Shown here piece by piece: positions 49,195-64,000 of a stretch of DNA of 64,000 nucleotides. The translations under genes were made by a program, and so were the position numbers. This DNA is from Halarcobacter anaerophilus (lineage in GTDB: Bacteria > Campylobacterota > Campylobacteria > Campylobacterales > Arcobacteraceae): contig NZ_CP041070.1 in the NCBI RefSeq assembly GCF_006459125.1, forward strand, positions 310,001 through 374,000, read 5' to 3'. The stretch's first letter is position 1; every line of letters starts with the position of its first letter. The notes under the pieces were generated by a model. It had not been told where the DNA came from and did not search any database. It saw nothing but the letters and a program-made list of their open reading frames with translations.

Positions 49195-50997
49195 ATGGAA
49201 ATAAAAGATAAAAACTTAGAAGAATTAGAGAAAATTTGTTCGGATATTAGAGATAGAATAATTGATGTAGTATCTAGAAAAGGCGGGCACTTCTCTTCAA
49301 CACTGGGTGCTGTTGAATTAACAGTTGCCATGCATAAAGTTTTTGATATCAAAAAAGATCCATTTATTTATGATGTTTCTCATCAATGTTATCCTCACAA
49401 ACTTATAAACGGTAGATGGGATGAGTTTGAAACAATCAGACAGTTTGGCGGCTTAAGCGGATTTACTAAACCAAAAGAGTCTGATGCCGATTATTTTGTG
49501 GCAGGTCACAGTTCAACCTCAATCTCACTTGCAGTCGGTGCTGCTAAAGCAATAAAACTAAAAGGTGAAGATAGAACTCCCGTTGTTATGATAGGTGACG
49601 GTTCCATGACTGCCGGGATGGTTTATGAAGCTTTAAATGAATTAGGAGACAGAAAATATCCCGTTGTCATTATTTTAAACGATAATGAGATGTCAATAGC
49701 TAAACCAATAGGCTCAATCTCTAAGTATTTATCAAAAATCCTGGCAGGAAAATATTATCAGGCTTTTAAAGAAAGAGTCGATAAAAATATAATTCAACAC
49801 CTTCCTACAGGTGCAACTTATATAGCCAAAAAAATAGAAGAGAGTATGAAACTTATTACTCCGGGAATAATTTTTGAAGAGATGGGAATAGACTATATAG
49901 GACCTATTGACGGGCATAATCTTGAAGAGATAATTGAGACTTTAGAGATAGCAAAAGCTATGAAAAAGCCTGTTATCGTTCATGCAAGAACAGTTAAAGG
50001 AAAAGGTTATAAATTTGCCGAAGGTCAGCACGAACGTTGGCACGGAGTAGGACCTTTTAATGTGGATAACGGGAAATTTGTTAAGAAAAATTCAGCAAAA
50101 TCCGCAACGGCAGTATTTGCAGATGCTTTATTAGAATTGGCAAAAAAACATGAGAATATAGTAGGTGTAACAGCAGCAATGCCAAGCGGTACGGGAATTG
50201 ACAAGCTAATGGAAGAGTTTCCTTCAAGATTTTGGGATGTTGCAATAGCAGAACAACATGCCGTAACTTCAATGGCAGCTATGGCAAAAGAGGGTTTTAA
50301 ACCTTTTATTACAATCTATTCTACTTTTTTACAAAGAGCCTATGACCAAATTATTCATGATGTATGTTTAATGGGTTTGCCCGTAGTTTTTGCAATAGAT
50401 AGAGCAGGAATTGTTGGAAATGACGGTGAAACGCATCAAGGAGCTTTTGATATCTCATATTTAAGATTTCTTCCTAATATGATTTTATGTGCACCAAGAG
50501 ATGATAAAACATTAGAGTACTCTTTAGAGTTCGGTTATGAAGCTACAAGTCCCTGTGCTATTAGATATCCAAGAGGAGCATTTAAACAGCTGCCTTATAA
50601 AGCTTCCAAATTTGAATTAGGAATTTCGGAACTTCTTAAAGAGGGAACTTCAAATAAACTTTTTATAGGTTACGGAGCTGGAGTTTCAAGAGCCTGTGAT
50701 ACGGAAGCTTTACATAAAGAGGATATCTCAATTTTAGATTTAAGGTTTGTGAAACCTTTAGATGAAAAAAAATTAAAAGAGTTAGCTTCTAAATATGATG
50801 ATTGGTATGTTTTCAGCGATTCTCAAAAACAAGGGGGAGTTGCAAGTGCGATTTTAGAGTTTTTAGATAAACAAAAAGTTTGCATCAATGTTACTTCTTT
50901 TGAATATGAAGATAGCTTTATCCATCATGGAGATACGAAAAAAGTAGAAGAGAGTCTGGGGCTTTTACCTGAACAATTAGTATTAAAAGTTAAATAG
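49195..50997 (+). CDS. dxs: 1-deoxy-D-xylulose-5-phosphate synthase
   Basis: A 600-residue thiamine-diphosphate enzyme joining pyruvate and glyceraldehyde 3-phosphate, the first step of the MEP isoprenoid route. The ThDP motif GDGSMTAGMVYEALN, the AEQHAVT active-site block and the C-terminal transketolase domain (FVKPLDEKKL) are visible. Length is slightly under E. coli Dxs (620). Its 3' end overlaps the convergent peptidase gene by 15 bp. Confidence 0.96.
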   Translation: MEIKDKNLEELEKICSDIRDRIIDVVSRKGGHFSSTLGAVELTVAMHKVFDIKKDPFIYDVSHQCYPHKLINGRWDEFETIRQFGGLSGFTKPKESDADYFVAGHSSTSISLAVGAAKAIKLKGEDRTPVVMIGDGSMTAGMVYEALNELGDRKYPVVIILNDNEMSIAKPIGSISKYLSKILAGKYYQAFKERVDKNIIQHLPTGATYIAKKIEESMKLITPGIIFEEMGIDYIGPIDGHNLEEIIETLEIAKAMKKPVIVHARTVKGKGYKFAEGQHERWHGVGPFNVDNGKFVKKNSAKSATAVFADALLELAKKHENIVGVTAAMPSGTGIDKLMEEFPSRFWDVAIAEQHAVTSMAAMAKEGFKPFITIYSTFLQRAYDQIIHDVCLMGLPVVFAIDRAGIVGNDGETHQGAFDISYLRFLPNMILCAPRDDKTLEYSLEFGYEATSPCAIRYPRGAFKQLPYKASKFELGISELLKEGTSNKLFIGYGAGVSRACDTEALHKEDISILDLRFVKPLDEKKLKELASKYDDWYVFSDSQKQGGVASAILEFLDKQKVCINVTSFEYEDSFIHHGDTKKVEESLGLLPEQLVLKVK

Positions 50998-51399
50998 TTT
51001 TGTAAAAACAACAGCTAACAATATAGCAGGTGCCATAGGGGCACTTCTTCTTTTTTTTATTTTTTTAAAGTATATTAAAAAAAACATCTGAACCAAACCT
51101 GCAATTATCAAAAAAAACGGAAAATGACTAGGCTCCAAATAAAGAGTTGAAACAGCCATATATTTTATATCTCCTCCTCCTAAAATCTGTTTTGGAAAAA
51201 GAAGTAAAACTATTATATAAAAAAGAGTGATTACAAAAAGATTTAAAAAAGAGAAAAGATTTAACTTATCTTCAAAATATCCAAAAATAAATAAAAAGAC
51301 TAAAAGTGTGCCTAAAAGAGCATTTGGAATTATACGTTTTTTACAATCAAAATAGAGTAGAAAAAAAGAAAAAATATAAAAAGATATATGAAAAATCAT
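50983..51399 (-). CDS. Stand-alone A24-type prepilin peptidase
   Basis: A 138-residue membrane aspartyl peptidase. The catalytic pair is Asp18 (DCKKRIIPN) and Asp77 in the GGGD motif followed by IKYM. About five to six helices. It lacks the N-terminal methyltransferase part of PilD, so it resembles TadV/CpaA or other short A24 enzymes. It lies 12 bp after a gene for a small pilin-like membrane protein, its likely substrate. No other pilus genes are in the window. Confidence 0.85.
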   Translation of the reverse strand: MIFHISFYIFSFFLLYFDCKKRIIPNALLGTLLVFLFIFGYFEDKLNLFSFLNLFVITLFYIIVLLLFPKQILGGGDIKYMAVSTLYLEPSHFPFFLIIAGLVQMFFLIYFKKIKKRRSAPMAPAILLAVVFTKLFNF

Positions 51400-51411
51400 T
51401 AGTAGAAGATT

Positions 51412-51612
51412 TTATATGTTTTTAGAAGAGACCTTTTCTTCCAAACTTTGGGATTTTATTAAAGAGTTGCCTAAACTTGGACTTTTTTTCTGCATCCAAA
51501 ATTGTAATCCTGCTACAATTGCAATTCCTAGAACAATAAGAAAAAACGTAACGAGAATTCTATCCATAGAGCCTTTTTCCGATTTAAGCCTTCTTTTTAA
51601 AAATTCAAACAT
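51412..51612 (-). CDS. Small pilin-like membrane protein
   Basis: About 66 residues from ATG 51612, which has AGGAG at good spacing (51618-51622). An upstream in-frame ATG at 51648 would give 78 residues but has no RBS. The N-terminus is basic (FLKRRLKSEKG), followed by SMD and a 19-residue hydrophobic stretch, the general plan of a class III prepilin signal with possible cleavage after Gly14. The usual Glu at +5 is missing. It is tightly linked to an A24 peptidase gene. It could instead be a plain membrane anchor. Confidence 0.65.
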   Translation of the reverse strand: MFEFLKRRLKSEKGSMDRILVTFFLIVLGIAIVAGLQFWMQKKSPSLGNSLIKSQSLEEKVSSKNI

Positions 51613-51694
51613 TCTTTCTCCTACTACTTTGTTAGCGAATTTTAACATAAAAGATTTTAAGCTATTTAAAAATATTAATATTTGTATAAATTTA

Positions 51695-52240
51695 TTACAT
51701 AAAAGTTTTTAATTTTTCTACGCAAAGTCCCATGGCGGTACTTTCATATCCTTTTACTTTTTTGATGTAGGGTTTGCAAAAACCTTCAACCATAATAGCT
51801 CCGGCTTTACCGAAACATTCTCCTGATTCTATATAGGCTTCCATATCATTTTTGTCAAAAGCTGCAAACTCATAAGTTGTAATAGATAAGTCTAAAAGCT
51901 CTATGTTTTTACTTTTATATATCATACAAGTGATAACAGAAGTTTTATTCCCGCTTTGAAGTTGCAACATTCTTCTTGCATCATTTTCATCTTTTGCTTT
52001 TCTAAGAAGTTCATTATTTGCCGTTACTACTGAATCTGCAACCAATAAAGGCATATCATCAATACCGTATTTTTTATAAAGTTCTTTGTATTTTCCCAAA
52101 GTTGCCTCATAAACAAAAGATTTTGGATTTTTTGTTTTTATTGAATCTTCATTAAAATTTCCGCCGTTTTGTATAAATTCAATATTATTATTTTTTAGTA
52201 ATAAAGCTCTTGTAGGAGAGTTTGAGCCAAGTCTTATCAA
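51695..52240 (-). CDS. maf: Maf-family nucleotide pyrophosphatase
   Basis: A 181-residue house-cleaning pyrophosphatase acting on non-canonical or m5-type nucleotides such as dTTP/UTP or m7GTP. The N-terminal SNSPTR corresponds to the S-x-SPRR motif, and VADSVV holds the catalytic Asp. The later block GKAGAIMVEGF is also typical. It is upstream of the pilin-like and peptidase genes on the same strand and divergent from the membrane protein at 52316. Confidence 0.9.
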   Translation of the reverse strand: MIRLGSNSPTRALLLKNNNIEFIQNGGNFNEDSIKTKNPKSFVYEATLGKYKELYKKYGIDDMPLLVADSVVTANNELLRKAKDENDARRMLQLQSGNKTSVITCMIYKSKNIELLDLSITTYEFAAFDKNDMEAYIESGECFGKAGAIMVEGFCKPYIKKVKGYESTAMGLCVEKLKTFM

Positions 52241-52303
52241 TAGAATCCTTTTTTTGATTTAGGTATTGTACAGCAGCTTGAGAAAAAATGAAATAAATTT
52301 CAG

Positions 52304-52309
52304 TATAAT
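52304..52309 (+). promoter_or_regulatory. -10 box immediately before the ATG at 52316
   Basis: TATAAT ends six bases before the start codon, so transcription would begin at or next to the ATG. No RBS is visible. This suggests a leaderless mRNA. Confidence 0.5.
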
Positions 52310-52315
52310 TACGAA

Positions 52316-53596
52316 ATGAATATACAAAAATTATCGGGCATTTTGATTTTTGCCTCTTTTTTAATTACAGTAATTAGTTATTTTTTAGAAGATGAACTTT
52401 CGGTTTTTTCAGGAATTTTTGCTTGGGTTGCTTTACTTTTTCTTTTTAGAAAAGCTGCAAATATAAAACTTTTGATTGTTTTACTGCTTCTGTCGATTTC
52501 AATTTTTATGTACTGCCTTTTAAACGGTTTTGAAGTAGATTTTAAAAGAGCAATCTTAGCAAATCAATACTTGCTTACACTTCTTATTGGAGTAGGTTTT
52601 TTAAGACTTATAGCAACGCCTAAAAATGAAAAAGTAAAAGAGCTTCCAAAAGGAGAGAACTCTTTTATAAAAACCTATTGGGGAGTACATCTTTTCGGTT
52701 CGGTTATAAATATCTCTTCTTTGATTTTAGTAGCCGATAAGCTTTATAAAAGGGCAAAATTTACAAAAGAGCAAACAATACTTTTAACAAGAGCTTTCTC
52801 TACAGATGCTTTTTGGTCTCCTTTTTTCGTGGCTTTTGCAGCCGCAACTACATATGCTCCTAATTTAGTAACGTCAAAAATTTTAATTTCAGGGCTTGTT
52901 TTAACTATAATAGCTTTTTTTGTAACACTTTTAGATGTTAAAAGAAATTATAATATAGAAGAGTTTCGAGGTTATCCAATACAGTTTGATACGCTGCTTT
53001 TACCTTTTTTACTGGCTGCTTTGGTTTTAATAACAAATCATTATTATCCAAGTTTAAAAGTGATTGTTTTAATCTCTTTTTTCTCTATTGTTTTAACAAG
53101 TTTGATACTTCCTTTAAAAGTGGGAATAAGAAAAGCAATAGAGCAGTTAAACTCTCATGTAAGCACGGATTTACCTAAAATGAAAAATGAAATTTCACTG
53201 TTTTTAGTAGCAGGAATGTTTGGAGTTAGCGTAAGTTGCGTTTTAATGGCATATAATATTGAGTTTCCTTTTGAACATTTTAATGCCGCAAGCGGTTCTG
53301 TTATGCTGCTTGTAATTATACTTTTATCATACGTGGGTATTCACCCTATTATTTCAATTGCCGTAATAGGAAACTGGACAATGGGGTTAAATCACACCTT
53401 TTTAGCTACAATATTTCTAATGGCTTGGTCGATTTCCGTTTCAACATCACCTTTTAGCGGAGTAAATCTAACAATGCAGGCAAGATATGATTTAAATGCA
53501 GTAGAGATATTTAAACTAAATCTTTTTTATGGAATAAAAATGTATATTTTTTCTGTAATAATTCTATTTGTCCTGGCAAACTATTTAGGACTTTAA
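52316..53596 (+). CDS. Multi-pass membrane protein of unknown function
   Basis: A 426-residue protein with about 11 membrane helices by eye and a central hydrophilic loop (about 280-295). Motifs that stand out are TRAFSTDAFWSPFFVAFAAA and SVSTSPFSGVNLT, whose small/polar residues within helices look like the paired re-entrant loops of ion-transporter superfamily members. I do not recognise a named family. It is followed with no gap by an AEC-type carrier gene, so the two may be co-expressed. Transport is an inference. Confidence 0.72.
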   Translation: MNIQKLSGILIFASFLITVISYFLEDELSVFSGIFAWVALLFLFRKAANIKLLIVLLLLSISIFMYCLLNGFEVDFKRAILANQYLLTLLIGVGFLRLIATPKNEKVKELPKGENSFIKTYWGVHLFGSVINISSLILVADKLYKRAKFTKEQTILLTRAFSTDAFWSPFFVAFAAATTYAPNLVTSKILISGLVLTIIAFFVTLLDVKRNYNIEEFRGYPIQFDTLLLPFLLAALVLITNHYYPSLKVIVLISFFSIVLTSLILPLKVGIRKAIEQLNSHVSTDLPKMKNEISLFLVAGMFGVSVSCVLMAYNIEFPFEHFNAASGSVMLLVIILLSYVGIHPIISIAVIGNWTMGLNHTFLATIFLMAWSISVSTSPFSGVNLTMQARYDLNAVEIFKLNLFYGIKMYIFSVIILFVLANYLGL

Positions 53597-54523
53597 TTGA
53601 AAATTTTATTTATAATTTTAGGAAAAATTTTTCCTTTGTATTTGACTATTTTTGCAGGATATATCCTTGCTAGATATTTTAAAATAAAAAGAGAACATAT
53701 AGCTTTTCTTCTTATTTATATATTAGGTCCCATTGTAATATTTTTTGCCGTATTATCTATCAATATAAATTTTCAATTGATTTTTCTTCCTCTGTTTATT
53801 TTCCTTTTTGGAAGTTTAATTGCTTTTTATATTTTAAAAAAGTATAAAAACGAGTGGAAAGATGCCAGCGTAAATACTTTGGCATTTACCTGCGGAACGG
53901 GAAATACCGGATATTTTGGAATTCCTCTTGCTATGATTTTACTTGAACCTAATAGTGCAAATATTTTTATTTTCGGGACTTTAGCTTCACTTCTTTATGA
54001 AAATACGACAGGTTTTTTCGTAACCGCAAAAGGGAATTTTACTGCAAGACAATCTATTATGAAAGTTTTAAAACTGCCTCTTTTATATGCTTTTATAGCA
54101 GGAGTCTCTTTTAATATTTTAGGTTTTAGAACGCCAGAGTTTATCGTTCCTTATTTTGAAAATTTCAAATGGGCTTACGGTTTGCTTGGAATGATGATGC
54201 TTGGAATGGGAATGAAAGGTTTTAATCTAAATGAAGATTTTGACAAAAAATATATAAAAATATCATACTTCTTTAAATTTATTTTTTGGCCGGGAGTCAT
54301 CTTGGCTTTGATTTTTATAGATAAAACTTTTATTAATTTTTTAAATGATGAAATCTATAGAGTAATGTTTCTTTTCTCTATTGTTCCCCTTGCAGGCAAT
54401 ACTGTAACTTTGGCGGTATTATTAAAAGCAAAACCCGAAAAAGCCTCTTTTACCGTTTTGCTTTCAACACTGATTTCTGTTATCTATATTCCTGTCGTGC
54501 TTGCTATATACGGTGGATTTTGA
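53597..54523 (+). CDS. AEC (auxin efflux carrier) family transporter
   Basis: A 308-residue inner-membrane carrier with about ten helices. The conserved GTGNTGYFGIPLA in the first half and the SIVPLAGNTVTLAVL block in the second are AEC hallmarks. Bacterial members move malate or related organic acids. The start is TTG directly after the preceding stop, so translation is probably coupled. The last 40 bp overlap the convergent NlpC/P60 gene. Confidence 0.86.
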   Translation: MKILFIILGKIFPLYLTIFAGYILARYFKIKREHIAFLLIYILGPIVIFFAVLSININFQLIFLPLFIFLFGSLIAFYILKKYKNEWKDASVNTLAFTCGTGNTGYFGIPLAMILLEPNSANIFIFGTLASLLYENTTGFFVTAKGNFTARQSIMKVLKLPLLYAFIAGVSFNILGFRTPEFIVPYFENFKWAYGLLGMMMLGMGMKGFNLNEDFDKKYIKISYFFKFIFWPGVILALIFIDKTFINFLNDEIYRVMFLFSIVPLAGNTVTLAVLLKAKPEKASFTVLLSTLISVIYIPVVLAIYGGF

Positions 54524-55032
54524 TCTATAACTCTTTTTGAAGTCCAATAAGCTTTTTTATAAAAGGGTTTATTTAGTTTTGTTACTTTAACCCCTTTTAT
54601 TGAAGCATGCATAAATTTTCCCTCTCCTATATAAATCCCCACATGTCTATCAACTCTTCCTGTTTTAAAGAAAATCAAATCTCCTAATTCAAGCTCGGAT
54701 TTTTTTACAGTTGTTCCTATTTTAACTTGAGTTCTAGTTGTTCTTGGAATATCTAAATCAAATTTCTCTTTAAAAACTTTTTGTGTAAAAGCCGAACAGT
54801 CGATTCCTTTTCTATCATCTCCTCCAAACTTATACTTTACGCCTTTCCATTTGTTATAGAAATCCATTAAAGCATTGTGAACATATTCTGCTCTTTGAAG
54901 TTCTATTTTTCTATTGTTCTTCTTTATTTTATCTTGTATGCTTTTATCACTTTGTACATATTTTGAGTTTGTTGAAGTACACCCTGTGATAAATGCAGCA
55001 AATAAAGATAAAAAAACTACTTTTTTAATCAT
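54484..55032 (-). CDS. NlpC/P60 lipoprotein (murein endopeptidase), copy 2
   Basis: A 182-residue lipoprotein with lipobox ITGC (Cys18). The NlpC/P60 domain, about 55-165, carries catalytic Cys79 (GIDCSAF), His130 (RHVGIY) and a third polar residue, probably His142. It should cut peptide cross-links of peptidoglycan, as E. coli MepS does. It is 10 bp downstream of a paralogue with the same plan, a tandem duplication. The 3' end overlaps the AEC gene by 40 bp. Confidence 0.92.
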   Translation of the reverse strand: MIKKVVFLSLFAAFITGCTSTNSKYVQSDKSIQDKIKKNNRKIELQRAEYVHNALMDFYNKWKGVKYKFGGDDRKGIDCSAFTQKVFKEKFDLDIPRTTRTQVKIGTTVKKSELELGDLIFFKTGRVDRHVGIYIGEGKFMHASIKGVKVTKLNKPFYKKAYWTSKRVIDQNPPYIASTTGI

Positions 55033-55042
55033 TTATCCCCTT

Positions 55043-55540
55043 TTAATATAAGACTCTTCTTATTTTCCATAAATGTTTGGAAAAATAAGGATTATCAAGT
55101 CTTGAAATAATTACGCCTTTTTTTGTAGATACATGCATAAATCTTCCGTTTTTTAGATATATACCCACATGATTTGTTTTAAAACCCGTTTTAAAAAATA
55201 GTAAATCTCCCGTAGCTAAATCTTCGGGACTGATGTCTTCTCCTATTTTAAGCTGCATATAAGTGGTTCTTGGAAGATTAAAGTTTAATTTCTCTTTAAA
55301 GGTTTTTTGTACAAAAGCAGAGCAGTCAATTCCTTTTTTTGAATAACCGCCGTATTTATACTTTACGCCTTCCCAGTTTTTATATTGTGTAAGTAAATTA
55401 TTATATATTTTATTATAATCTAAAGATTCAGAGGGTTTGTTATTTATAGTTTTATAATCGATAGAATCATACTTGCTGCTACAGCCTTGTAGTATCAGAA
55501 TAAGCAGTAAAAAGATAAATTTCAAACAGTTTTTAAACAC
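55043..55540 (-). CDS. NlpC/P60 lipoprotein (murein endopeptidase), copy 1
   Basis: A 165-residue lipoprotein with lipobox LQGC (Cys20). Catalytic Cys73 (GIDCSAF), His124 (NHVGIY) and His136 are in place. It shares blocks with the next gene (WEGVKYKYGG versus WKGVKYKFGG; PRTTYMQLKIG versus PRTTRTQVKIG). The promoter region is shared with the divergent SIMPL gene and carries an 11-bp-spaced direct repeat. Confidence 0.92.
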   Translation of the reverse strand: MFKNCLKFIFLLLILILQGCSSKYDSIDYKTINNKPSESLDYNKIYNNLLTQYKNWEGVKYKYGGYSKKGIDCSAFVQKTFKEKLNFNLPRTTYMQLKIGEDISPEDLATGDLLFFKTGFKTNHVGIYLKNGRFMHVSTKKGVIISRLDNPYFSKHLWKIRRVLY

Positions 55541-55562
55541 TAATATACCTAAAAATAGAGAT

Positions 55563-55603
55563 TTGTAACTCTATTGTAACTTAAATTTTCTTAAGTTTAA
55601 AAA
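55563..55603. promoter_or_regulatory. Repeated GTAACT elements between divergent envelope genes
   Basis: TTGTAACT occurs at 55563-55570 and 55574-55581, exactly 11 bp apart. The inverted form AAGTTAC is at 55597-55603. One-turn spacing of 6-bp direct repeats is the plan used by OmpR/CpxR-class regulators. It lies between the NlpC/P60 and SIMPL genes. Confidence 0.45.
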
Positions 55604-55630
55604 ATTAAGTTACTTTATCAAAGGATTTAT

Positions 55631-56350
55631 ATGACGAATTTAAATACAAAATCAATGTTTACCCTGGGAATTTTTATTTTTTTAGGCTTAAGTTCATTAG
55701 GATATTTTATCTCTTCTAGCGTAGTTAAGTTTAAACAGTACGATAGATCTGTTACCGTAAAAGGTCTTTCTCAAAAAGAGTATAAAGCCGATATTGTTTT
55801 ATGGCCTATAAAGTTTGTTCTTCCCGATAACGACTTTTTTAAATTAAATGAAAATATTGAAAAAAATACGAAAATCATACTTGATTTTTTAAAAAATAAT
55901 GGCGTAACAGATGATGAAATAACAGTTCAATCTCCTTCTATAACCGATAGACTGGCAAGTGATTACTCAAACAGCAGAAATTTTGAATATAGATATTTAG
56001 GAAAAAGAACAATAAATATATATTCAAAAAACGTTGATAAAATAAGGGAAACTATTTCCAAACTAAATGAGTTGACAAAAGAGGGTATTGTTTTTAAAAT
56101 TGATGATTATGATACACGAATTGAGTATATTTTTACAAAATTAAATGAAGTAAAACCTTTGATGATAGAAGAGTCTACAAAAAAAGCAAGAGAAGTAGCT
56201 TTAAAGTTTGCAAAAGATTCAAGCAGTAAATTAGGAAAAATCAAAAAAGCCAGACAAGGACAGTTTAGTATTACTAACAGAGATAAAAACACTCCTTATA
56301 TAAAAACAGTCAGGGTTGTTTCTACCGTTGAGTATTATTTAAGCGATTAA
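55631..56350 (+). CDS. SIMPL-domain (DUF541) periplasmic protein
   Basis: A 239-residue protein with one N-terminal helix or uncleaved signal (about 10-32) and a SIMPL domain, seen from SVTVKGLSQKEYKADI and the C-terminal REVALKFAKDSSSKLG. Related proteins such as E. coli YggE affect oxidative stress tolerance, but a molecular role is not settled. AAAGGAT precedes ATG. It is divergent from the NlpC/P60 pair and converges on echF with a 4-bp overlap. Confidence 0.85.
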   Translation: MTNLNTKSMFTLGIFIFLGLSSLGYFISSSVVKFKQYDRSVTVKGLSQKEYKADIVLWPIKFVLPDNDFFKLNENIEKNTKIILDFLKNNGVTDDEITVQSPSITDRLASDYSNSRNFEYRYLGKRTINIYSKNVDKIRETISKLNELTKEGIVFKIDDYDTRIEYIFTKLNEVKPLMIEESTKKAREVALKFAKDSSSKLGKIKKARQGQFSITNRDKNTPYIKTVRVVSTVEYYLSD

Positions 56351-56769
56351 GAGGACTCCTCTTTTTTAGCTTTTTTAAGATTTTTATAATCAATTCTGCT
56401 CTGTTTTGCATCATTGTAGAGTTTTTTCCAGTTTGTCACAAGAAAATTGTCTTTTATTCCAATTTCCGGTTTATTTTCGCTATGAGTTAAGGCTTGATCT
56501 GTTTTTGGGCAGTTTCTAACGCATTCACCGCAATAGATACAAAGATATTCATTATAATTATACTCTTTTGTGCCGTCTTCATTTTGATGAAAAACTATGG
56601 CTTTGGGAGGACAGACTTTCTCGCATTTATCACAAAAAATACACTCATTTACATCATAAACAATCAAACCTCTATATTTTGGAAAATGTTTAATAGTTTC
56701 AGCCGGATAGTTTTTTGTTACGGGTTTTTTAAAAATATTTGTAAAAGATTCAACTATTGATTTAAACAT
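56347..56769 (-). CDS. echF: Ech-type hydrogenase ferredoxin subunit (EchF/NuoI-like)
   Basis: A 140-residue iron-sulfur protein. Two [4Fe-4S] motifs are visible, CIFCDKCEKVCP and CIYCGECVRNCP. It relays electrons between ferredoxin and the small subunit. It is the last of six hydrogenase genes in the order echA-F, 6 bp after the large subunit. The highly charged C-terminus (KKAKKEESS) is coded across the terminator of the opposite SIMPL gene. Confidence 0.88.
   Translation of the reverse strand: MFKSIVESFTNIFKKPVTKNYPAETIKHFPKYRGLIVYDVNECIFCDKCEKVCPPKAIVFHQNEDGTKEYNYNEYLCIYCGECVRNCPKTDQALTHSENKPEIGIKDNFLVTNWKKLYNDAKQSRIDYKNLKKAKKEESS
56349..56367 (+). terminator. Terminator of the SIMPL gene inside echF
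   Basis: AAGAGG (56349-56354) pairs with CCTCTT (56358-56363) with loop ACT, running into six T. It is GC-rich for this genome. It lies within the last codons of the convergent echF. Confidence 0.7.
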
Positions 56770-56775
56770 AATTCT

Positions 56776-57867
56776 CTACTTTGCCGTACATGACATACAA
56801 GGATCAAATGAGGCTAAAATTGCATGAGCATCTGCATAATTAGCACCTTTAAAAACATTTACCATTGCAGGAATTTGAGAAAAAGTAGGTGTTTTTATTC
56901 TTACTCTTTGAAGCATATTTTTTCCTGTTGCATTAAGATAATAAAATATTTCACCCCTTGGAGCTTCTATTCTCATAAAAGTTTCCCCTTTTGGTTTACC
57001 TTTAACTTTTTCCATAATTTCACCTTCCGGAACTCCGTCAACTATATTTCTAACCATTTTAATAGAGTTTTTTATCTCCCTTAATCTAACCATATTTCTT
57101 GAATGAATATCTCCTCCTTGTTCTAAAACAAGTTCATATCCCACTTCATCGTAAGGAAAATCGGAAGTTTCAAGTCTTACGTCTATCTTAGCTCCGCAGG
57201 CTCTCGCCATCGGTCCTAAAGCGTTCATATTATAAGCATCTTCTTTGCTTAAGTGCCCTATGTTTTTATATTTTAAACTTAAAGACCAGTTATTTGTAAA
57301 TTTATCTATTAAGTCATCAATTTTTTCTTCAAGCAAGGAAATATTTTTTTTCAAAAGTTTTTCCGTTTCCAAGTCTAGATCCCTGTTTACTCCACCTATT
57401 GAGACATAATCAAACTGAACTCTGTTTCCCGAGATTGCTTCTTGAATATCCATTACAAGTTCTCTGTCAGCCATTATTTTCATAAACATACCTTCAAAGC
57501 CTGCATTTTCGCTTACATGGGCAAGACATAGCATATGAGAGTGGATTCTGTCTAATTCAAGCATTAAAAGTCTTAGATATTTTATCTTTTTATTAACTTC
57601 ATGATCTAACAGTTTTTCAACACCAATGGTATAAGATAAAGAGTGGGTAATAGCACAAAGTCCGCAAACTCTTGCAACTACATATCCTACTTGCTTAAAC
57701 TCAAAATTTGTAGTGCAGGCTTTCTCTATTCCTCTGTGAACAAAACCTACATCCCAATCTACATCGACTATTTTTTCGTTTTGTGTTGAAAAGTTAAATC
57801 GAATTGGTTCCAAAAGGGAAATATGTTGGGAACCAAGAGGTATATTTATTGTTTTTTTAGTTGCCAT
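56776..57867 (-). CDS. echE: Ech-type [NiFe] hydrogenase large subunit
   Basis: A 363-residue catalytic subunit of a group 4 membrane hydrogenase. Both nickel-binding pairs are present: Cys68 and Cys71 in RVCGLCAITHS, and Cys357 and Cys360 in DPCMSCTAK, so it is a true hydrogenase and not NuoD. The protein ends three residues after the last Cys, so the C-terminal peptide cut off during maturation of most [NiFe] hydrogenases is missing. It overlaps echD by 11 bp. Confidence 0.92.
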   Translation of the reverse strand: MATKKTINIPLGSQHISLLEPIRFNFSTQNEKIVDVDWDVGFVHRGIEKACTTNFEFKQVGYVVARVCGLCAITHSLSYTIGVEKLLDHEVNKKIKYLRLLMLELDRIHSHMLCLAHVSENAGFEGMFMKIMADRELVMDIQEAISGNRVQFDYVSIGGVNRDLDLETEKLLKKNISLLEEKIDDLIDKFTNNWSLSLKYKNIGHLSKEDAYNMNALGPMARACGAKIDVRLETSDFPYDEVGYELVLEQGGDIHSRNMVRLREIKNSIKMVRNIVDGVPEGEIMEKVKGKPKGETFMRIEAPRGEIFYYLNATGKNMLQRVRIKTPTFSQIPAMVNVFKGANYADAHAILASFDPCMSCTAK

Positions 57868-58207
57868 TTTTTTCCTTTAAAGGAGTTTGTTGTGAAGTTT
57901 CATCAAGATAAAGACCTTTTTTTATAGTTTGAATTTTTAAACCGAATAGATCAACTATCTCCATCTCACTCATTATTGCACTTGGGATTATATCTGTTAT
58001 TGTAGGAACTGTTGCATTAAAAGCTACGTCACATTCAAAAACCGTGAAATTCTCTTTTTCTTCATACTTTGAAAATATCCATTGCAGCTTGCAGGTCCCT
58101 TCTATATCATTCGCATTTAAACATACAAAATGCCAAAGATCAGGTTTATAAAACTCTTTGATTTTGTTTTTTACTTCATCTATATTTACTTCAATTTTTT
58201 CTATCAT
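57857..58207 (-). CDS. echD: Ech-type hydrogenase NuoC-like subunit
   Basis: A 116-residue subunit related to the 30-kDa NuoC subunit of complex I. The segment EMEIVDLFGLKI matches the conserved E-REI-DLFGI block. It is overlapped by neighbours at both ends (17 bp with echC, 11 bp with echE). It has no cofactor motif and should be structural, holding the large and small subunits together. Confidence 0.82.
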   Translation of the reverse strand: MIEKIEVNIDEVKNKIKEFYKPDLWHFVCLNANDIEGTCKLQWIFSKYEEKENFTVFECDVAFNATVPTITDIIPSAIMSEMEIVDLFGLKIQTIKKGLYLDETSQQTPLKEKNGN

Positions 58208-58715
58208 CTATATTTCCTGCAAATTTTGTTCTGTCGATACTAGCTTTGCTTTCATCAAGCTCTCCTAAGAGTTTTTTAGGTTTTTCTATCTCTTTTGTTT
58301 TTTGCTCTAAAATTTCCAAACCTTTTACAACACCGTCAATTATAAGTTCCGGACTTGCCGCACAGCCCGGAATATATACATCAACAGGAATATATTTATC
58401 TATTCCGTTTTCCACATTGTACATATCATTAAATACTCCACCCGTACAAGTACAACTTCCAACTGCAACTACGACTTTTGGTTCGGGCATTTGGGTATAA
58501 AGTTCTACTAATCTCTCTCTTGAACGATAGGTTAAAGGACCTGTTACCAAAAAAATATCCGACTGTTTTGGATTCCCGTTGTTTAAAATACCGAATCTTT
58601 CCAAATCATATTTAGGAGCCAAAGCTGCAAGTATCTCTATATCGCAGCCGTTACAGCTTCCGCAGTTGTAATGAAGTATCCAAGGGGATTTTTTTCTATA
58701 TTTTTTTAAACTCAT
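58191..58715 (-). CDS. echC: Ech-type hydrogenase small subunit (NuoB-like)
   Basis: A 174-residue subunit carrying the proximal [4Fe-4S] cluster. The ligands are Cys21 and Cys24 (CGSCNGCD), Cys88 (GSCTC) and Cys118 (PGCAASP). The C-terminal 35 residues are charged. It overlaps echB by 4 bp. C-x-x-C rather than the paired Cys-Cys of NuoB favours the hydrogenase assignment. Confidence 0.9.
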   Translation of the reverse strand: MSLKKYRKKSPWILHYNCGSCNGCDIEILAALAPKYDLERFGILNNGNPKQSDIFLVTGPLTYRSRERLVELYTQMPEPKVVVAVGSCTCTGGVFNDMYNVENGIDKYIPVDVYIPGCAASPELIIDGVVKGLEILEQKTKEIEKPKKLLGELDESKASIDRTKFAGNIDDRKN

Positions 58716-59539
58716 AGAACACTTCCTAAAATATTTATACTAACTAAAATCACTCCTAAGCCTAAAACAATTTTTACCATATGATTTATTTTTATCCTAG
58801 CTGTAGAGTTATCTACTAAATTTACAAATAAAAAGGTAAAAAGAACTAAAATTGTTCCAAGAAGATGATTACTCCCTGCTAAAATATAGACGAAACTATA
58901 AGCAAAAATCATCTCTAAAAATTTTGCGGCATATAAGAACTCGTAAAATATTGAGCCGAACTCTATTTCTATTCCTCCTACTATCTCTTGGTGAGCTTTA
59001 GGTGCATCAAAAGGAGAGAGTTTTGTAATTGAAGGGATTATAAGCAAAAGGGCAAAATATACAAAAAGCAAAGATAAAAAATGTGAAGGTGAGTTTAAAA
59101 TTTCACTTATTTCAAAACTTCCGTATACTAAATATATTGCAATACAGACCAAAAGAAGTACGGGTTCATATGCAACGATTGAGAGAAGTTTTCTATTTGA
59201 CCCTAAATGAGAAAAGATAGATTTCACGCTAAAGCCTGCAAGTATTAAAATAATAGAAGATAATAGATGTAAAAATATTATATAAAGAAGATTAAATCCC
59301 ATATAAATTAACCCTACTACGCACCAAAGGGTGACAAAATAAAAAAGTCCCAAAAGGGTATGGGTTTTGTTTACTATTAAGGCTCTTTTATCCATAAGTT
59401 TATACATATCAAAAATAGGCTGCATAAGAGGAGGTCCTATTCTTCTTTGCATTTTTGCTTTTAAAACTCTTTGTGCACCTTCAAAAAAAGCTGCATATAC
59501 AGGAGCAAAAAGGATTAAAAAAAATGTTATTGTATTCAT
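58712..59539 (-). CDS. echB: Ech-type hydrogenase membrane subunit (NuoH-like)
   Basis: A 275-residue membrane protein with about eight helices. KMQRRIGPPLMQP near residue 30 and the acidic PFDAPKAHQEIVGGIEIEFG loop are conserved in NuoH/EchB/HycD and couple electron transfer to ion movement. It overlaps echA by 4 bp. Confidence 0.9.
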   Translation of the reverse strand: MNTITFFLILFAPVYAAFFEGAQRVLKAKMQRRIGPPLMQPIFDMYKLMDKRALIVNKTHTLLGLFYFVTLWCVVGLIYMGFNLLYIIFLHLLSSIILILAGFSVKSIFSHLGSNRKLLSIVAYEPVLLLVCIAIYLVYGSFEISEILNSPSHFLSLLFVYFALLLIIPSITKLSPFDAPKAHQEIVGGIEIEFGSIFYEFLYAAKFLEMIFAYSFVYILAGSNHLLGTILVLFTFLFVNLVDNSTARIKINHMVKIVLGLGVILVSINILGSVL

Positions 59540-61284
59540 AAAGCCAATCCTAATATAACTATTGCAAAAAGCATAAATATAAAACTATTTTGAAGTATAG
59601 TTTTATATTTGTCAAAATCATAATAAAATACTCCCACATTGTGGGTATATTTCTCTCCGCACGAATACTCTTTAACTCTGTCTATGCCTTTAAATTTTGC
59701 TTTTTTCAGAAAAATAAAAAAAGCAAAAAAGAGTAAAAGGATTATAATTGTAAACATTATAAGACTTAATTTGGAATAAACAATTACAAGTAATGAAACA
59801 AGTGCAATAAAAAATAAGATATAAGAGGTAAAGGTAAACTCTTTTGGTATTTTATGCTCTAAAACCTCATGTTCGGTTGAAGATCTGTCTATTAGTTTTG
59901 AAGCAACTTTAAAATATAGAAGAACCAAAATTGAGGAACCTATAACTAAAGAGATTACAACTAAAAGATAAAAAGGGTTTTGTTTTATTAAAAAGCTTAA
60001 ATACTCTATTGAAAATAATTTCGCAAAAAACAGACCAAAAGGAGGAAGCGTAATTGAAGCAAAAGCCAAAAGAATAAAAATAGTAAGTTTTGGTGCTTTT
60101 TCAAAAAGCAGAGTAAAATCTTCAATACTTTTTATATGAAACTCTTTTTCCAAAATCCCCGCAATCATAAAAAGCAAGGCTTTTGAAACAGCATGGAAAA
60201 ATATCAGATATAAAGTAATAGTAAAAGCCTCTTTTGTACCGATTGCCGCAATACTTACCATTAAAGCCAAAAGTGCGATGGTAGAGTAGGCTAAAATCTC
60301 TTTGAAATTATCTTTCCCTAAAGATTGTAAAGATACTACGACAAAAACAAGCATCGCAAAACAACTTATTAAAAAAGAGATTAAAGGAGAAAAGGCATAA
60401 GAGATTTTAAGTATTAAAAAGGGTGCAATTTTTACCATAGTAGCACTATGAAGTATGGCACTAACAGGTGTTGGCGCAACCATCGCCCCTAAAAGCCAGC
60501 TTTCAAAAGGTTTTGAAGCACCTTTTACAAAAGCTGCAAAAGCTAAAAATATAGTTATTAAAACAGCATTATTGTTTATATTTGTAAAATAGATAGAACT
60601 GTTTGTATGAATTGCTATAATTACAGCAAAAAGAATAAAAACTCCGCCTATTTGATTTATCCACAAAGCTCGAAGAGAATTGTTTATGGAAATTTCATCT
60701 TCTCTGAATCTAATTAAAAGATACGAAGATAGAGTTGTTAATTCAAAAAAGAAGAAAAAGAGCATAAAACTATTTGAGATAACTACCATATTCATAATAA
60801 AAATAAAAAACCATAAATAAGAAAGAAAAAAGGTTTTTCTTTCTTGTGAACAATCCTCATACTCTATATATTTGAGAGCATAAATAGCAATTATAGAACC
60901 TACTAGATTTATAACTAAAAGCATAAAAAAAGATAATTTGTCTGCATAAAAATCACTAAATATCTCATTTTCTAAAAAAGTCTCGCCGTAAGTAAATAAA
61001 AATAGTTGAATTAAAGCTAAGCAGAGTACTTTTAGACTTTTAAACTTAAATCCTATATAAGCAAAATAGAGTAAAAGCAGAGTGTCTAAACTTATAATTA
61101 TATAGTGCAAAGTGCTGTTTATAGAGAACTGGACAACTGCATCAATAGATAAAAGATATAAAGAAACTGCACTTAAAACTATAGCCGAAATTGCTGAAAA
61201 CGTATAAATAATTTTCTTATTATTGGATAAAACAGAGGCTGAAACAAAAAGAGGAAGTAAAATATAAAGAATGAGCATATACAT
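59536..61284 (-). CDS. echA: Ech-type hydrogenase ion-pumping subunit (NuoL/Mrp antiporter-like)
   Basis: A 582-residue membrane subunit of the antiporter-like family with about 15 helices. The conserved Glu in FFFELTTLSSY and the Lys and His in GASKPFESWLLGAM and AILHSATMVK are the expected proton-path residues. AAGGAT precedes ATG. It is the first gene of the six-gene unit. The upstream region has a 14-bp palindrome. Confidence 0.9.
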   Translation of the reverse strand: MYMLILYILLPLFVSASVLSNNKKIIYTFSAISAIVLSAVSLYLLSIDAVVQFSINSTLHYIIISLDTLLLLYFAYIGFKFKSLKVLCLALIQLFLFTYGETFLENEIFSDFYADKLSFFMLLVINLVGSIIAIYALKYIEYEDCSQERKTFFLSYLWFFIFIMNMVVISNSFMLFFFFFELTTLSSYLLIRFREDEISINNSLRALWINQIGGVFILFAVIIAIHTNSSIYFTNINNNAVLITIFLAFAAFVKGASKPFESWLLGAMVAPTPVSAILHSATMVKIAPFLILKISYAFSPLISFLISCFAMLVFVVVSLQSLGKDNFKEILAYSTIALLALMVSIAAIGTKEAFTITLYLIFFHAVSKALLFMIAGILEKEFHIKSIEDFTLLFEKAPKLTIFILLAFASITLPPFGLFFAKLFSIEYLSFLIKQNPFYLLVVISLVIGSSILVLLYFKVASKLIDRSSTEHEVLEHKIPKEFTFTSYILFFIALVSLLVIVYSKLSLIMFTIIILLLFFAFFIFLKKAKFKGIDRVKEYSCGEKYTHNVGVFYYDFDKYKTILQNSFIFMLFAIVILGLAL

Positions 61285-61305
61285 TATTTTATATCCTTAA
61301 AATTT

Positions 61306-61319
61306 TATACTTAAGTATA
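61306..61319. promoter_or_regulatory. 14-bp palindrome upstream of echA
   Basis: TATACTTAAGTATA, a perfect palindrome 22 bp before the echA ATG. It could be an operator overlapping the promoter. AT-only palindromes arise easily in this DNA. Confidence 0.35.
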
Positions 61320-61370
61320 GTAAAAAAAAGTTACAGAACTATTTAATAAAGGCTGATTTTACCAATAAAA

Positions 61371-61402
61371 TAAGAAGTTGTTTTGATTTTTTACAACTTC
61401 TT
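61371..61402 (-). terminator. Terminator after the CopD-like gene
   Basis: AAGAAGTTGT (61372-61381) pairs with ACAACTTCTT (61393-61402) in a perfect 10-bp stem with an 11-nt loop. On the minus strand ATTTTATT follows. It separates the alaS unit from the hydrogenase operon. Confidence 0.65.
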
Positions 61403-61407
61403 GATTT

Positions 61408-61887
61408 TTAAAATCCTCTTAGTGTAATTCCTAAATAAATAGCAACAATTCCTAAAAGTATATTAAGGGGAATAAGATAGTTGGCTATTGGAGCCAATTT
61501 CTCTTTTGCCAAAGGAAGTTTTCCTTCATCAAAAGCTTTTTGTGCTTGGTTTCTTTTTATAAAAATTACGGCAAAAACTATAGTCATAATAGTCCAAACA
61601 CTCTCTTTTGCTATAACGATTGAGTATAAAGGAGTTCCTTTAAATCCAAGAGCAATTATCATAATTATTGCAGTTAAAAGCAAAACAATAATTGAAGGGA
61701 TTACCATATTAAAAAATCTTCTAAGATTTTCCAGTGTTCTTCCAAGTTTTATTTTAGGATCTTGAACCTCTTGCATAGAGTAATGAACGGCAAGTCTTAT
61801 TGCTATCATTCCTCCAACCCAGATTACGGCACTTATAACATGTAAAAAAACAATTATTGAAGAGAAGTTATGAAATAGTGTTTCCAT
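61408..61887 (-). CDS. CopD/HemJ-like four-helix membrane protein
   Basis: A 159-residue protein with four helices. The N-terminal FLHVISAVIWVGGMIAIRLAVHYS resembles the first helix of CopD and HemJ proteins, with a conserved His and Trp-Gly-Gly. It could bind copper or heme or act in protoporphyrinogen oxidation; the match is not strong enough to decide. It lies 3 bp after alaS and is probably co-transcribed with it. Confidence 0.65.
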   Translation of the reverse strand: METLFHNFSSIIVFLHVISAVIWVGGMIAIRLAVHYSMQEVQDPKIKLGRTLENLRRFFNMVIPSIIVLLLTAIIMIIALGFKGTPLYSIVIAKESVWTIMTIVFAVIFIKRNQAQKAFDEGKLPLAKEKLAPIANYLIPLNILLGIVAIYLGITLRGF

Positions 61888-61890
61888 CTC

Positions 61891-64000
61891 TTATAAATTC
61901 TCCTTTACAAATTTTAGTGCCGCTTCTTTTGCTTCATCGATTTTTGAAATATCTTTTCCTCCTGCTTGGGCAAAGTCGGGTCTTCCACCTCCGCCTCCGC
62001 CTACAATAGGAGCAATATTTTTAATCCAGTCGCCTGCTTTGATTGCCGTATTTTTAGATCCTGCAACCAACATTACTTTTTCGCCTTTTGGCTGAATAAG
62101 CATAATAGCGACTTTCTCATTTCCGTTTTTATAATCATCAACTATTTTTTTAATATCACCGTTTTTTACGATATCTACAACTATTTTTGTATCGCCTATA
62201 AGCTCTTCATTAATAGGAGCGGCAACTGAGTTTTGTGCAAGTTCCAACTCTTTTTTAAGCTCTTTTATTTGATCTTTTAATTTTTTAATACCTAAAAGGA
62301 CATCACTGTTTTTAACTTCTGTTTGCACTTCATTCATTTTAGAGATAATATCTTTTGTGTATTTAATAGCCGACAATCCGCAAACAGCTTCTATTCTTCT
62401 AACTCCTGCACTGACTCCCGATTCTTTTGTAATATAAAAAGAACCTATATCATGAGTATTTCTTACGTGAGTTCCACCGCAAAATTCAACAGAAGCATCT
62501 TCAAAGCTTACAACTCTTACAACATCTCCGTATTTCTCACCGAACATAGCTATTGCGCCTTTTTCTTTGGCTTCTTCAATAGGTAACTCTTCGGTTTTTC
62601 CTTCAATACCTCTTGCAATCATTGTATTTACTAGATCTTCAACTTCTTCTATCTCTTCGTTTGTCATAGCTTTAGGGTAAGTAAAGTCAAATCTTAGTCT
62701 ATTTGCATCATTTAATGAACCTGCTTGTGAAACAGTATCTCCAAGTACCATTTTTAAAGCACTTTGAAGTAAATGCGTTGCAGAGTGGTGTTTTGCTATT
62801 TCCCATCTGTTTACTACAACTGCCGAAACTTTTTCATCTTTTGTTAAAGTTGATTTTTCAACCGATACTTTAGATAAATTAACTCCGTGGAATTTTTGAG
62901 TTGTTTTAACAATAGCAATATGTTCATCATCTTCTAATGCGCCCACATCTCCTTCTTGTCCACCGCTTGTAGCATAAAACGGAGTTTTGTCAAGCATCAC
63001 CCAACCTTTTTCACCTTTAGATAATTTTTCTACTTCATTGAAACTTTCATCTAGCAGTGCAACTATTTTACTGTCGTATGTTGTATGATTATATCCTACG
63101 AATTCATTTATTCCGTATTTTTCAATTAAGGCTTTGAAATCACCCTCTTTAGCAGCGTCTCCGCTACCTTTCCAAGCAGCTTTTGCTTTTGTTTTCTGCT
63201 CATTCATAAGTTCGTCAAATTTTTCTACATCAACTTGGATATTTTTGTCTCTTAACATATCTTGAGTTAAGTCTAAAGGGAAACCTTTTTCATCATAAAG
63301 TTTAAATGCAATTTCACCGCTGAACAGCTCTTTTGTTTTTTCAAGCTCTTCATTAAATAAAGCCATACCCGATTCAATAGTTTTGAAAAATCTCTCTTCT
63401 TCTAAAGTTAATTGTTCTTTTACATATTTTTTCTGTTCAATAAGCTCTTTATAATGAGAACCCATAATATCGCAAAGTGTATCATAAAGTTTTGCCATAA
63501 AAGGCTCTCTAAAGCCAAGAAGGTATCCGTGTCTTACGGCTCTTCTCATAATTCTTCTGTTTACATAAGGTCTTCCTTCATTTCCAAAAAGAATACCTTG
63601 GCTTAACATAAAAGCATTGGCTCTTAAATGATCCGCAATTACTCTATATGAACCGATTGTTTCAGATGTTACTTTTTTACCTGATAATTCTTCAATCTTT
63701 TTTATAATAGGTTGAAAGTTAGATGAATCAAAGTTATTAAAAACACCTTCTTTGATTGCAATAACTCTTTCTAAACCCATACCTGTATCTATTGAAGGTT
63801 TAGGAAGAGGTGTTAAAGTACCGTCTGCACTTCTTTCATACTGCATAAAAACTAAATTCCAGATCTCTAAAAATCTGTCACCGTCTCCACCCATTTTATC
63901 TTCAGGAGAGTTGAAATTTTCTGCACCTTGATCATAAAAAATTTCAGAACAAGGTCCACATGCACCGGTGTCACCCATTGACCAAAAATTATCTTTATCC
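61891..64000 (-). CDS. alaS: Alanyl-tRNA synthetase, 5' end beyond the window
   Basis: About 702 codons are visible. The frame is open to the right edge, and the visible part starts around [18 protein letters not shown], roughly residue 155 of a protein near 850. The editing domain shows [12 protein letters not shown] and the zinc-binding CGGTHVRNT. The C-terminal domain ends with a glycine-rich [15 protein letters not shown]. The ATG at 63978 is an internal methionine, not the start. Class II catalytic motif 1 lies outside the window. Confidence 0.95.

Follow-up and report, generated by a model that had tools for sequence, protein, structure and literature searches.

Within a 64,000-nucleotide stretch of the Halarcobacter anaerophilus genome (NCBI RefSeq assembly GCF_006459125.1, contig NZ_CP041070.1, positions 310,001 to 374,000 of the forward strand; hereafter the window, whose own positions are used throughout), a minus-strand operon (61284-56347) carries a complete ech gene set in the order echA-B-C-D-E-F. 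We assign it, with a probability of about 0.93, to the Ech type of group 4 [NiFe] hydrogenases, as an enzyme with all six subunits and with reversible, ion-coupled H2/ferredoxin chemistry; this figure covers the identity of the enzyme and the type of chemistry, and excludes the link to nitrogen fixation discussed below. According to the open reading frame (ORF) list, the products have 582, 275, 174, 116, 363 and 140 amino acids (aa). The first gene, echA (59536..61284), encodes a predicted ion-pump subunit of the NuoL/MrpA-like type, matched by the Pfam families Proton_antipo_M and Proton_antipo_N above cut-off, and is followed by echB (58712..59539), for a NuoH-like membrane subunit (NADHdh PF00146, 127.5 bits, above cut-off), echC (58191..58715), for a NuoB-like small subunit (Oxidored_q6, above cut-off), and echD (57857..58207), for a NuoC-like protein (Complex1_30kDa PF00329, 32.6 bits against a cut-off of 22.5). 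The [NiFe] catalytic large subunit is encoded by echE (56776..57867; Complex1_49kDa and NiFeSe_Hases, both above cut-off), and echF (56347..56769) specifies a protein matched by Fer4 families above cut-off, with two 4Fe-4S motifs, CIFCDKCEKVCP and CIYCGECVRNCP. Four of the five junctions overlap (by 4, 4, 17 and 11 bp) and 6 bp separate echE from echF; the original prediction of six overlapping genes in the order echA-F was therefore right in position, order and completeness, and slightly inexact about overlap at the last junction.

These genes establish the family, the subunits and the ligands of the window Ech. Both CxxC pairs that bind nickel are present in EchE, as had been predicted, in RVCGLCAITH and in DPCMSCTAK, the latter at the very C terminus. 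The solved structures nearest to EchE are those of Pyrococcus furiosus Mbh (6cfw_L, E 2.9e-57) and formate hydrogenlyase (7z0s, 1.1e-55), with NuoD chains ranking after them, and the nearest to EchC is MbhJ of the same 6cfw structure (E 2.2e-45); Mbh itself has more subunits, including an Mrp module. In an alignment of EchA with NuoL (4he8_L), the Glu of FFELTTLSS, the Lys of FVKGASKPFESW and the Lys of HAVSKALLF fall on Glu/Lys positions of the latter, which we take to be channel residues of the pump. Ion coupling in the window Ech would follow the behavior of characterised relatives. Since the tail of EchE ends 3 residues past the last Cys, a maturation protease may perhaps be unneeded.

Profile searches gave some ground for reading the operon as a complex I fragment or a Nuo paralogue with no hydrogenase function: among the NCBIfam models, NuoD ranks first for EchE (all below cut-off), one NuoB subfamily model exceeds its cut-off for EchC, complex I and antiporter models lead overall, and no Ech-named model appears among the matches listed for the window Ech proteins. 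That reading is nonetheless almost certainly wrong, as EchE keeps both nickel cysteine pairs and passes the cut-off of NiFeSe_Hases, whereas the NuoD (409 aa) and NuoCD (544 aa) proteins of the same genome have neither motif and stand apart from EchE in a tree in which they were the only two NuoD rows, on long branches. A NuoD identity of EchE was consequently rejected, and the original placement in group 4, outside complex I, holds. In the NuoD-inclusive tree, from which five rows were dropped (the very long branches L068_427aa and L070_474aa and three duplicates), the Ech set and Butyrivibrio lie on one side of a branch with a Shimodaira-Hasegawa approximate likelihood ratio (SH-aLRT) value of 90.6. 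It weighs against the assignment that this branch, the one that sets the Ech rows apart once NuoD is added, is unstarred, and that long-branch warnings attach to the Butyrivibrio join and to the placement of NuoD, whose rows meet those of Azospirillum.

In the main EchE tree (63 rows, with Butyrivibrio, Azospirillum and Rhodovastum as outside rows in addition to Campylobacterota), the 39 Campylobacterota EchE rows, two of them identical, form one clade with 100/100 support, separate from the Hyf rows and from the Coo-like group; its nearest outside row is the Butyrivibrio Ech (90/91, with a long-branch warning). All six clade loci longer than 10 kb (L023, L024, L066-L069) keep the order A-B-C-D-E-F, and the 4-kb loci show B-F or less. 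Two genomes have non-contiguous operons: in G407 (locus L101), echA-D and echE-F are split by ~5.5 kb holding other genes, and in G396 (locus L102) only echE-F was found within the 19 kb examined. The original suggestion of an Arcobacter-like setting is borne out by the metagenome-assembled genome (MAG) 'Arcobacter sp. isolate SZUA-449', which has a full operon with an 85% identical EchE beside the same alaS and small membrane gene. The EchE row of this MAG is identical to that of G060, a genome of the same genus as H. anaerophilus.

Two further group 4 classes were considered and rejected. Coo-type enzymes (group 4c) are marked by a long CooM, a ferredoxin gene inside the operon and a CO dehydrogenase; in the window EchA has 582 aa, against ~1150-1170 aa in L057, L058 and L070, echF comes last, and the Prismane family (PF03063) has zero matches genome-wide, which indicates that no CO dehydrogenase of that family is encoded. 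As for Hyf/Hyc (group 4a), formate-linked Hyf has been reported for Arcobacter spp. (PMC6242987). Hyf has a large subunit of ~580 aa with a C-terminal tail and forms a separate clade, and the seven Hyf rows extend 35-37 residues past the last Cys, in contrast to the 363-aa EchE and its 3 residues. Among Coo-like and Ech-like large subunits, the first nickel motif has the form CSLC or CALC in L016, L057, L059, L060 and L063, and a CGxC match is likewise absent from L017, L058, L061, L062 and L064. A NuoD-like protein of ~474 aa near a Coo-type operon (L070:7641-9062; G066, same genus) has degraded nickel motifs (SFSSNN, DLCESC) and is possibly an inactive partner subunit.

The genome under study (G000; one contig of 3,016,922 bases, 99.99% complete) supplies the context in which the enzyme would operate. 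Genes hypA-F are all present at ~1.14-1.15 Mb, ~0.78 Mb from ech, with HypF, B, D, E, A and C identified. Neither of the two findings set beforehand as refuting the original interpretation, EchE among NuoD proteins or a genome devoid of hyp genes, was obtained. Inspection by eye of the ORFs at 50000-64000 with a length of 80 aa or more, 10 of whose proteins were profile-scanned, showed no gene for hyp maturation, CO dehydrogenase or formate dehydrogenase (the formate dehydrogenase search was confined to this neighbourhood), in agreement with the original prediction that none is adjacent. Three 2-oxoacid:ferredoxin oxidoreductases are encoded, namely a 1189-aa pyruvate:ferredoxin oxidoreductase (PFOR), a second 2-oxoacid enzyme and a 2-oxoglutarate synthase, so that both the pyruvate and the 2-oxoglutarate enzymes sought elsewhere in the genome were found. 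Moreover, there are four further [NiFe] large subunits: two group-1-like, one of 451 aa ending at the last cysteine pair, and one Hox-like. The Hox-like set (L010:7155-12380; G000 ~2.725-2.730 Mb) has NuoE-, NuoF- and NuoG-like partners, and also includes a small gene resembling a maturation protease.

HydDB describes group 4e, the subgroup of Ech enzymes, as coupled to ferredoxin and, through ion translocation, physiologically reversible (PMC5037454). By the mechanism that we propose, electrons would travel between the nickel site of EchE and ferredoxin or flavodoxin by way of EchC and EchF, and EchA/EchB would couple this transfer to ion movement across the membrane; abundant reduced ferredoxin, as supplied by the encoded 2-oxoacid:ferredoxin oxidoreductases, would drive H2 formation, and H2 together with an ion gradient would drive formation of reduced ferredoxin. 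The three ferredoxin-reducing enzymes, and the production of H2 from pyruvate by Sulfurospirillum, ascribed there to Hyf (PMC6242987), fit a fermentative electron valve that oxidises PFOR-made ferredoxin, vents H2 and pumps ions without any particular connection to nitrogen fixation, a function to which we give nearly even odds, although by itself it does not predict the association with nif genes described next.

The genome also encodes nifH, nifD and nifK, and a flavodoxin gene lies in their region (G000:C1:81997-82902; L082/L083), making the organism a likely diazotroph; transport-like genes neighbour nifHDK. The idea of a nitrogen link arose from nifH in this genome, and carriage was counted first in Arcobacteraceae (family code f1) and then in the families coded f4 and f7, in which ech carriers usually also carry nifH. 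In Arcobacteraceae, nifH occurs in 5/5 ech-bearing and 25/99 ech-less genomes (30/104 overall; Fisher p 0.0015); in f7 in 15/17 against 13/34 (p 0.0009); and in f4 in 4/5 against 4/24 (p 0.013). The single ech-bearing genomes of f6 and of f3 also have nifH, and those of f11 and of f13 do not. The two ech-bearing f7 genomes without nifH are G407 and G396, the pair with non-contiguous operons, which were still counted as carriers. The nifH-positive counts include G453 (gene cut by a contig end), G435 (a 171-residue piece) and G110 (63% identity). In a Mantel-Haenszel test of ech against nifH, which left out f3 (one carrier, nifH-positive), f13 (one carrier, nifH-negative) and the families without ech, z was 4.6 by family and 3.0 by genus (p 0.003); in all these association tests the correction for shared descent is incomplete.

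In f1, f4 and f7, mean genome size is higher in carriers of ech and in carriers of nifH, as would be expected if the association were indirect, with both genes being accessory in environmental lineages whose genomes are larger, and the occurrence of ech without intact nifH in f5 also favors this explanation. We regard it as unlikely, given that the association holds within genera and within strata of family and size: when labels were shuffled within family and size tertile, using only f1, f4 and f7, the families with a positive association, 24 of the 27 ech-bearing genomes had nifH against 16.0 expected (p 5e-5).

The same 24 of 27 genomes, the nifHDK and flavodoxin genes and the additional group-1-like and Hox-like hydrogenases are consistent with an Ech working mainly in reverse, with H2 and an ion gradient driving the reduction of ferredoxin or flavodoxin, which would then serve nitrogenase (and biosynthesis). 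Rnf or Fix play a like role in other diazotrophs. Several observations stand against such a nitrogen link. In the genome under study ech lies ~283 kb from nifH and there is no sign of a shared promoter, as the intergenic region upstream of echA (61285..61407) holds no convincing sigma-54 site (best with 4 mismatches) and nifH has weak ones only; the lack of linkage and of a sigma-54-like site argues mildly against dedicated co-regulation. As many as 25/30 nifH-bearing Arcobacteraceae genomes have no ech, and intact nifH is missing from the ech-bearing genomes of f10 (0/2, against 16/20 without ech; p 0.065) and of f5 (0/7). In one of these f5 genomes, scored as nifH-negative, the nifH gene is split into two pieces, the first interrupted by a TGA (G316:C1:1435831-1436647), and is either broken or mis-assembled. 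PFOR could, in addition, provide the ferredoxin instead, and we consider a mainly reverse flow possible but on the unlikely side. The Hox-like large subunit is also enriched, in 3/5 ech-bearing genomes compared with 13/104 genomes of the family, suggesting that the link may be to H2 metabolism generally. In 12 genomes of f10 (genus g41), a group 4 gene lies ~11-24 kb away from nifH. It was dropped as support for a nitrogen link because other genes intervene (in 2 of the 12, which were examined), neither EchA nor EchB is matched, and in G221, of the same genus, the gene occurs where nifH is absent.

The clade EchE was found in 37/397 genomes of the phylum (at least 50% identity), counts that are lower bounds as the five best candidates were scored per genome, and the match of G273 is partial (residues 3-297). 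It occurs in 5/104 Arcobacteraceae genomes at 63-100% identity, and in 2/16 genomes of the genus of H. anaerophilus. The Arcobacteraceae rows do not form one clade (log-likelihood 142.6 lower when so constrained; approximately unbiased test, p-AU 1.7e-42), and the EchE of the window and that of G060 group with G161 and a Sulfurovum MAG (L024). Since typical vent strains of genera including Sulfurovum have been reported to lack Ech (PMC11406935), L024 may be either exceptional or the product of a binning error. These trees and counts indicate that ech is patchy in Arcobacteraceae and was probably acquired multiple times. Base composition gave no foreign signal (G+C 30.6% for ech, 30.3% for the window).

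The slot of the operon is bordered by a minus-strand gene for a small membrane protein with below cut-off similarity to CopD/UPF0093 (61408..61887) and by a plus-strand gene for a SIMPL-family protein (55631..56350); in the ech-side intergenic region 61285..61407 no sigma-70-like site was found in the echA direction. The slot was examined in nine of the 14 genomes of the genus that have no ech: the SIMPL gene directly abuts the small membrane gene in five, it is also missing in three, and a 491-aa ORF fills the slot in one (L092). In G060, ech lies at the same border and the SIMPL homologue is on a different contig. Gain and loss are alike compatible with these arrangements.

Two observations concern other loci of this genome. 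Its two NuoD-type genes, for the NuoCD and NuoD proteins already mentioned (C1:2530989-2531810 and C1:2856970-2857800), have counterparts in many genomes of the family, which suggests that many Arcobacteraceae have two complex I types. An ORF of 1490 aa (L010:7-4479) is built from numerous near-identical repeats, each of ~100 codons, with a high content of Leu, His and Tyr; it may represent a repeat-protein gene read in the wrong frame or on the wrong strand.

The Ech operon itself is ordinary for the phylum, having been published for Nautilia, Sulfurimonas and mangrove Campylobacteria. The ech genes of Nautilia profundicola belong to group 4 and share their gene order with the ech sets of Desulfovibrio vulgaris and Methanosarcina barkeri (PMC2628731). 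The f5 loci L066 and L067, from what is probably Nautiliaceae, likewise carry echA-F in the order of the window, and f5 rows lie at the base of the clade; they differ in that their EchE is 50-55% identical to that of the window and that f5 genomes have no intact nifH. Family f10 appears Sulfurospirillum-like, and f7 and f4 Sulfurimonas- and Sulfurovum-like. Ech is also known in Sulfurimonas, including Sulfurimonas gotlandica (PMC4584964; PMC7952632), and among mangrove Campylobacteria isolates 7/7 have nif and 5/7 have Ech (PMC12403661), so that, as in H. anaerophilus, Ech occurs in mesophilic Campylobacteria. The mangrove isolates have ATP-citrate lyase, whereas the only PF16114 match of the genome under study, a borderline one, is succinyl-CoA ligase, and hence no ATP-citrate lyase was found by PF16114. 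Outside the phylum, the set on plasmid pNP243 of Butyrivibrio fibrisolvens (L053; named Ech by gene order) has the same A-F order, but adjoins hypA and hypFCDE (A-F followed by hypFCDE), and its EchE is 37.8% identical to that of the window. The 'Ech-like' hydrogenase of Sulfurospirillum (PMC6242987), to which we tentatively assign L060 and L061, shares a group 4-type large subunit with the window, but falls in another clade, has no EchA/EchB match beside either locus, and shows CALC as the first motif in L060.

For Arcobacteraceae, published accounts name NiFe groups 1 and 3 (PMC11265409), a group 1b enzyme (PMC5037454) and uptake [NiFe] hydrogenases, with nifHDK in some genomes (PMC12453579). 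In the portions of the open-access literature examined, we found no report of Ech for this family, and in PMC10654671 'Ech hydrogenase' appears in the reference list only. Likewise, no test of an association between ech and nif was found in the portions of the literature examined, including PMC5861303 and PMC12403661.

What is new here is the frequent joint carriage of ech and nifH in three families of the phylum. As ech in Arcobacteraceae has so far always been in nifH-bearing genomes, it is plausible that Ech serves nitrogen fixers in their handling of H2 and low-potential electrons. More tentatively, and at odds that we would call low, Ech in mesophilic Campylobacterota might be a recurrently acquired accessory of nitrogen fixation, which would use H2, including that released by nitrogenase, and an ion gradient to supply nitrogenase with reduced ferredoxin or flavodoxin. 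In this context, the tie between ech and nifH offers a testable answer to the question of low-potential electron traffic around nitrogenase. The slot, being empty in close relatives, provides a natural comparison, with and without ech, inside one genus.

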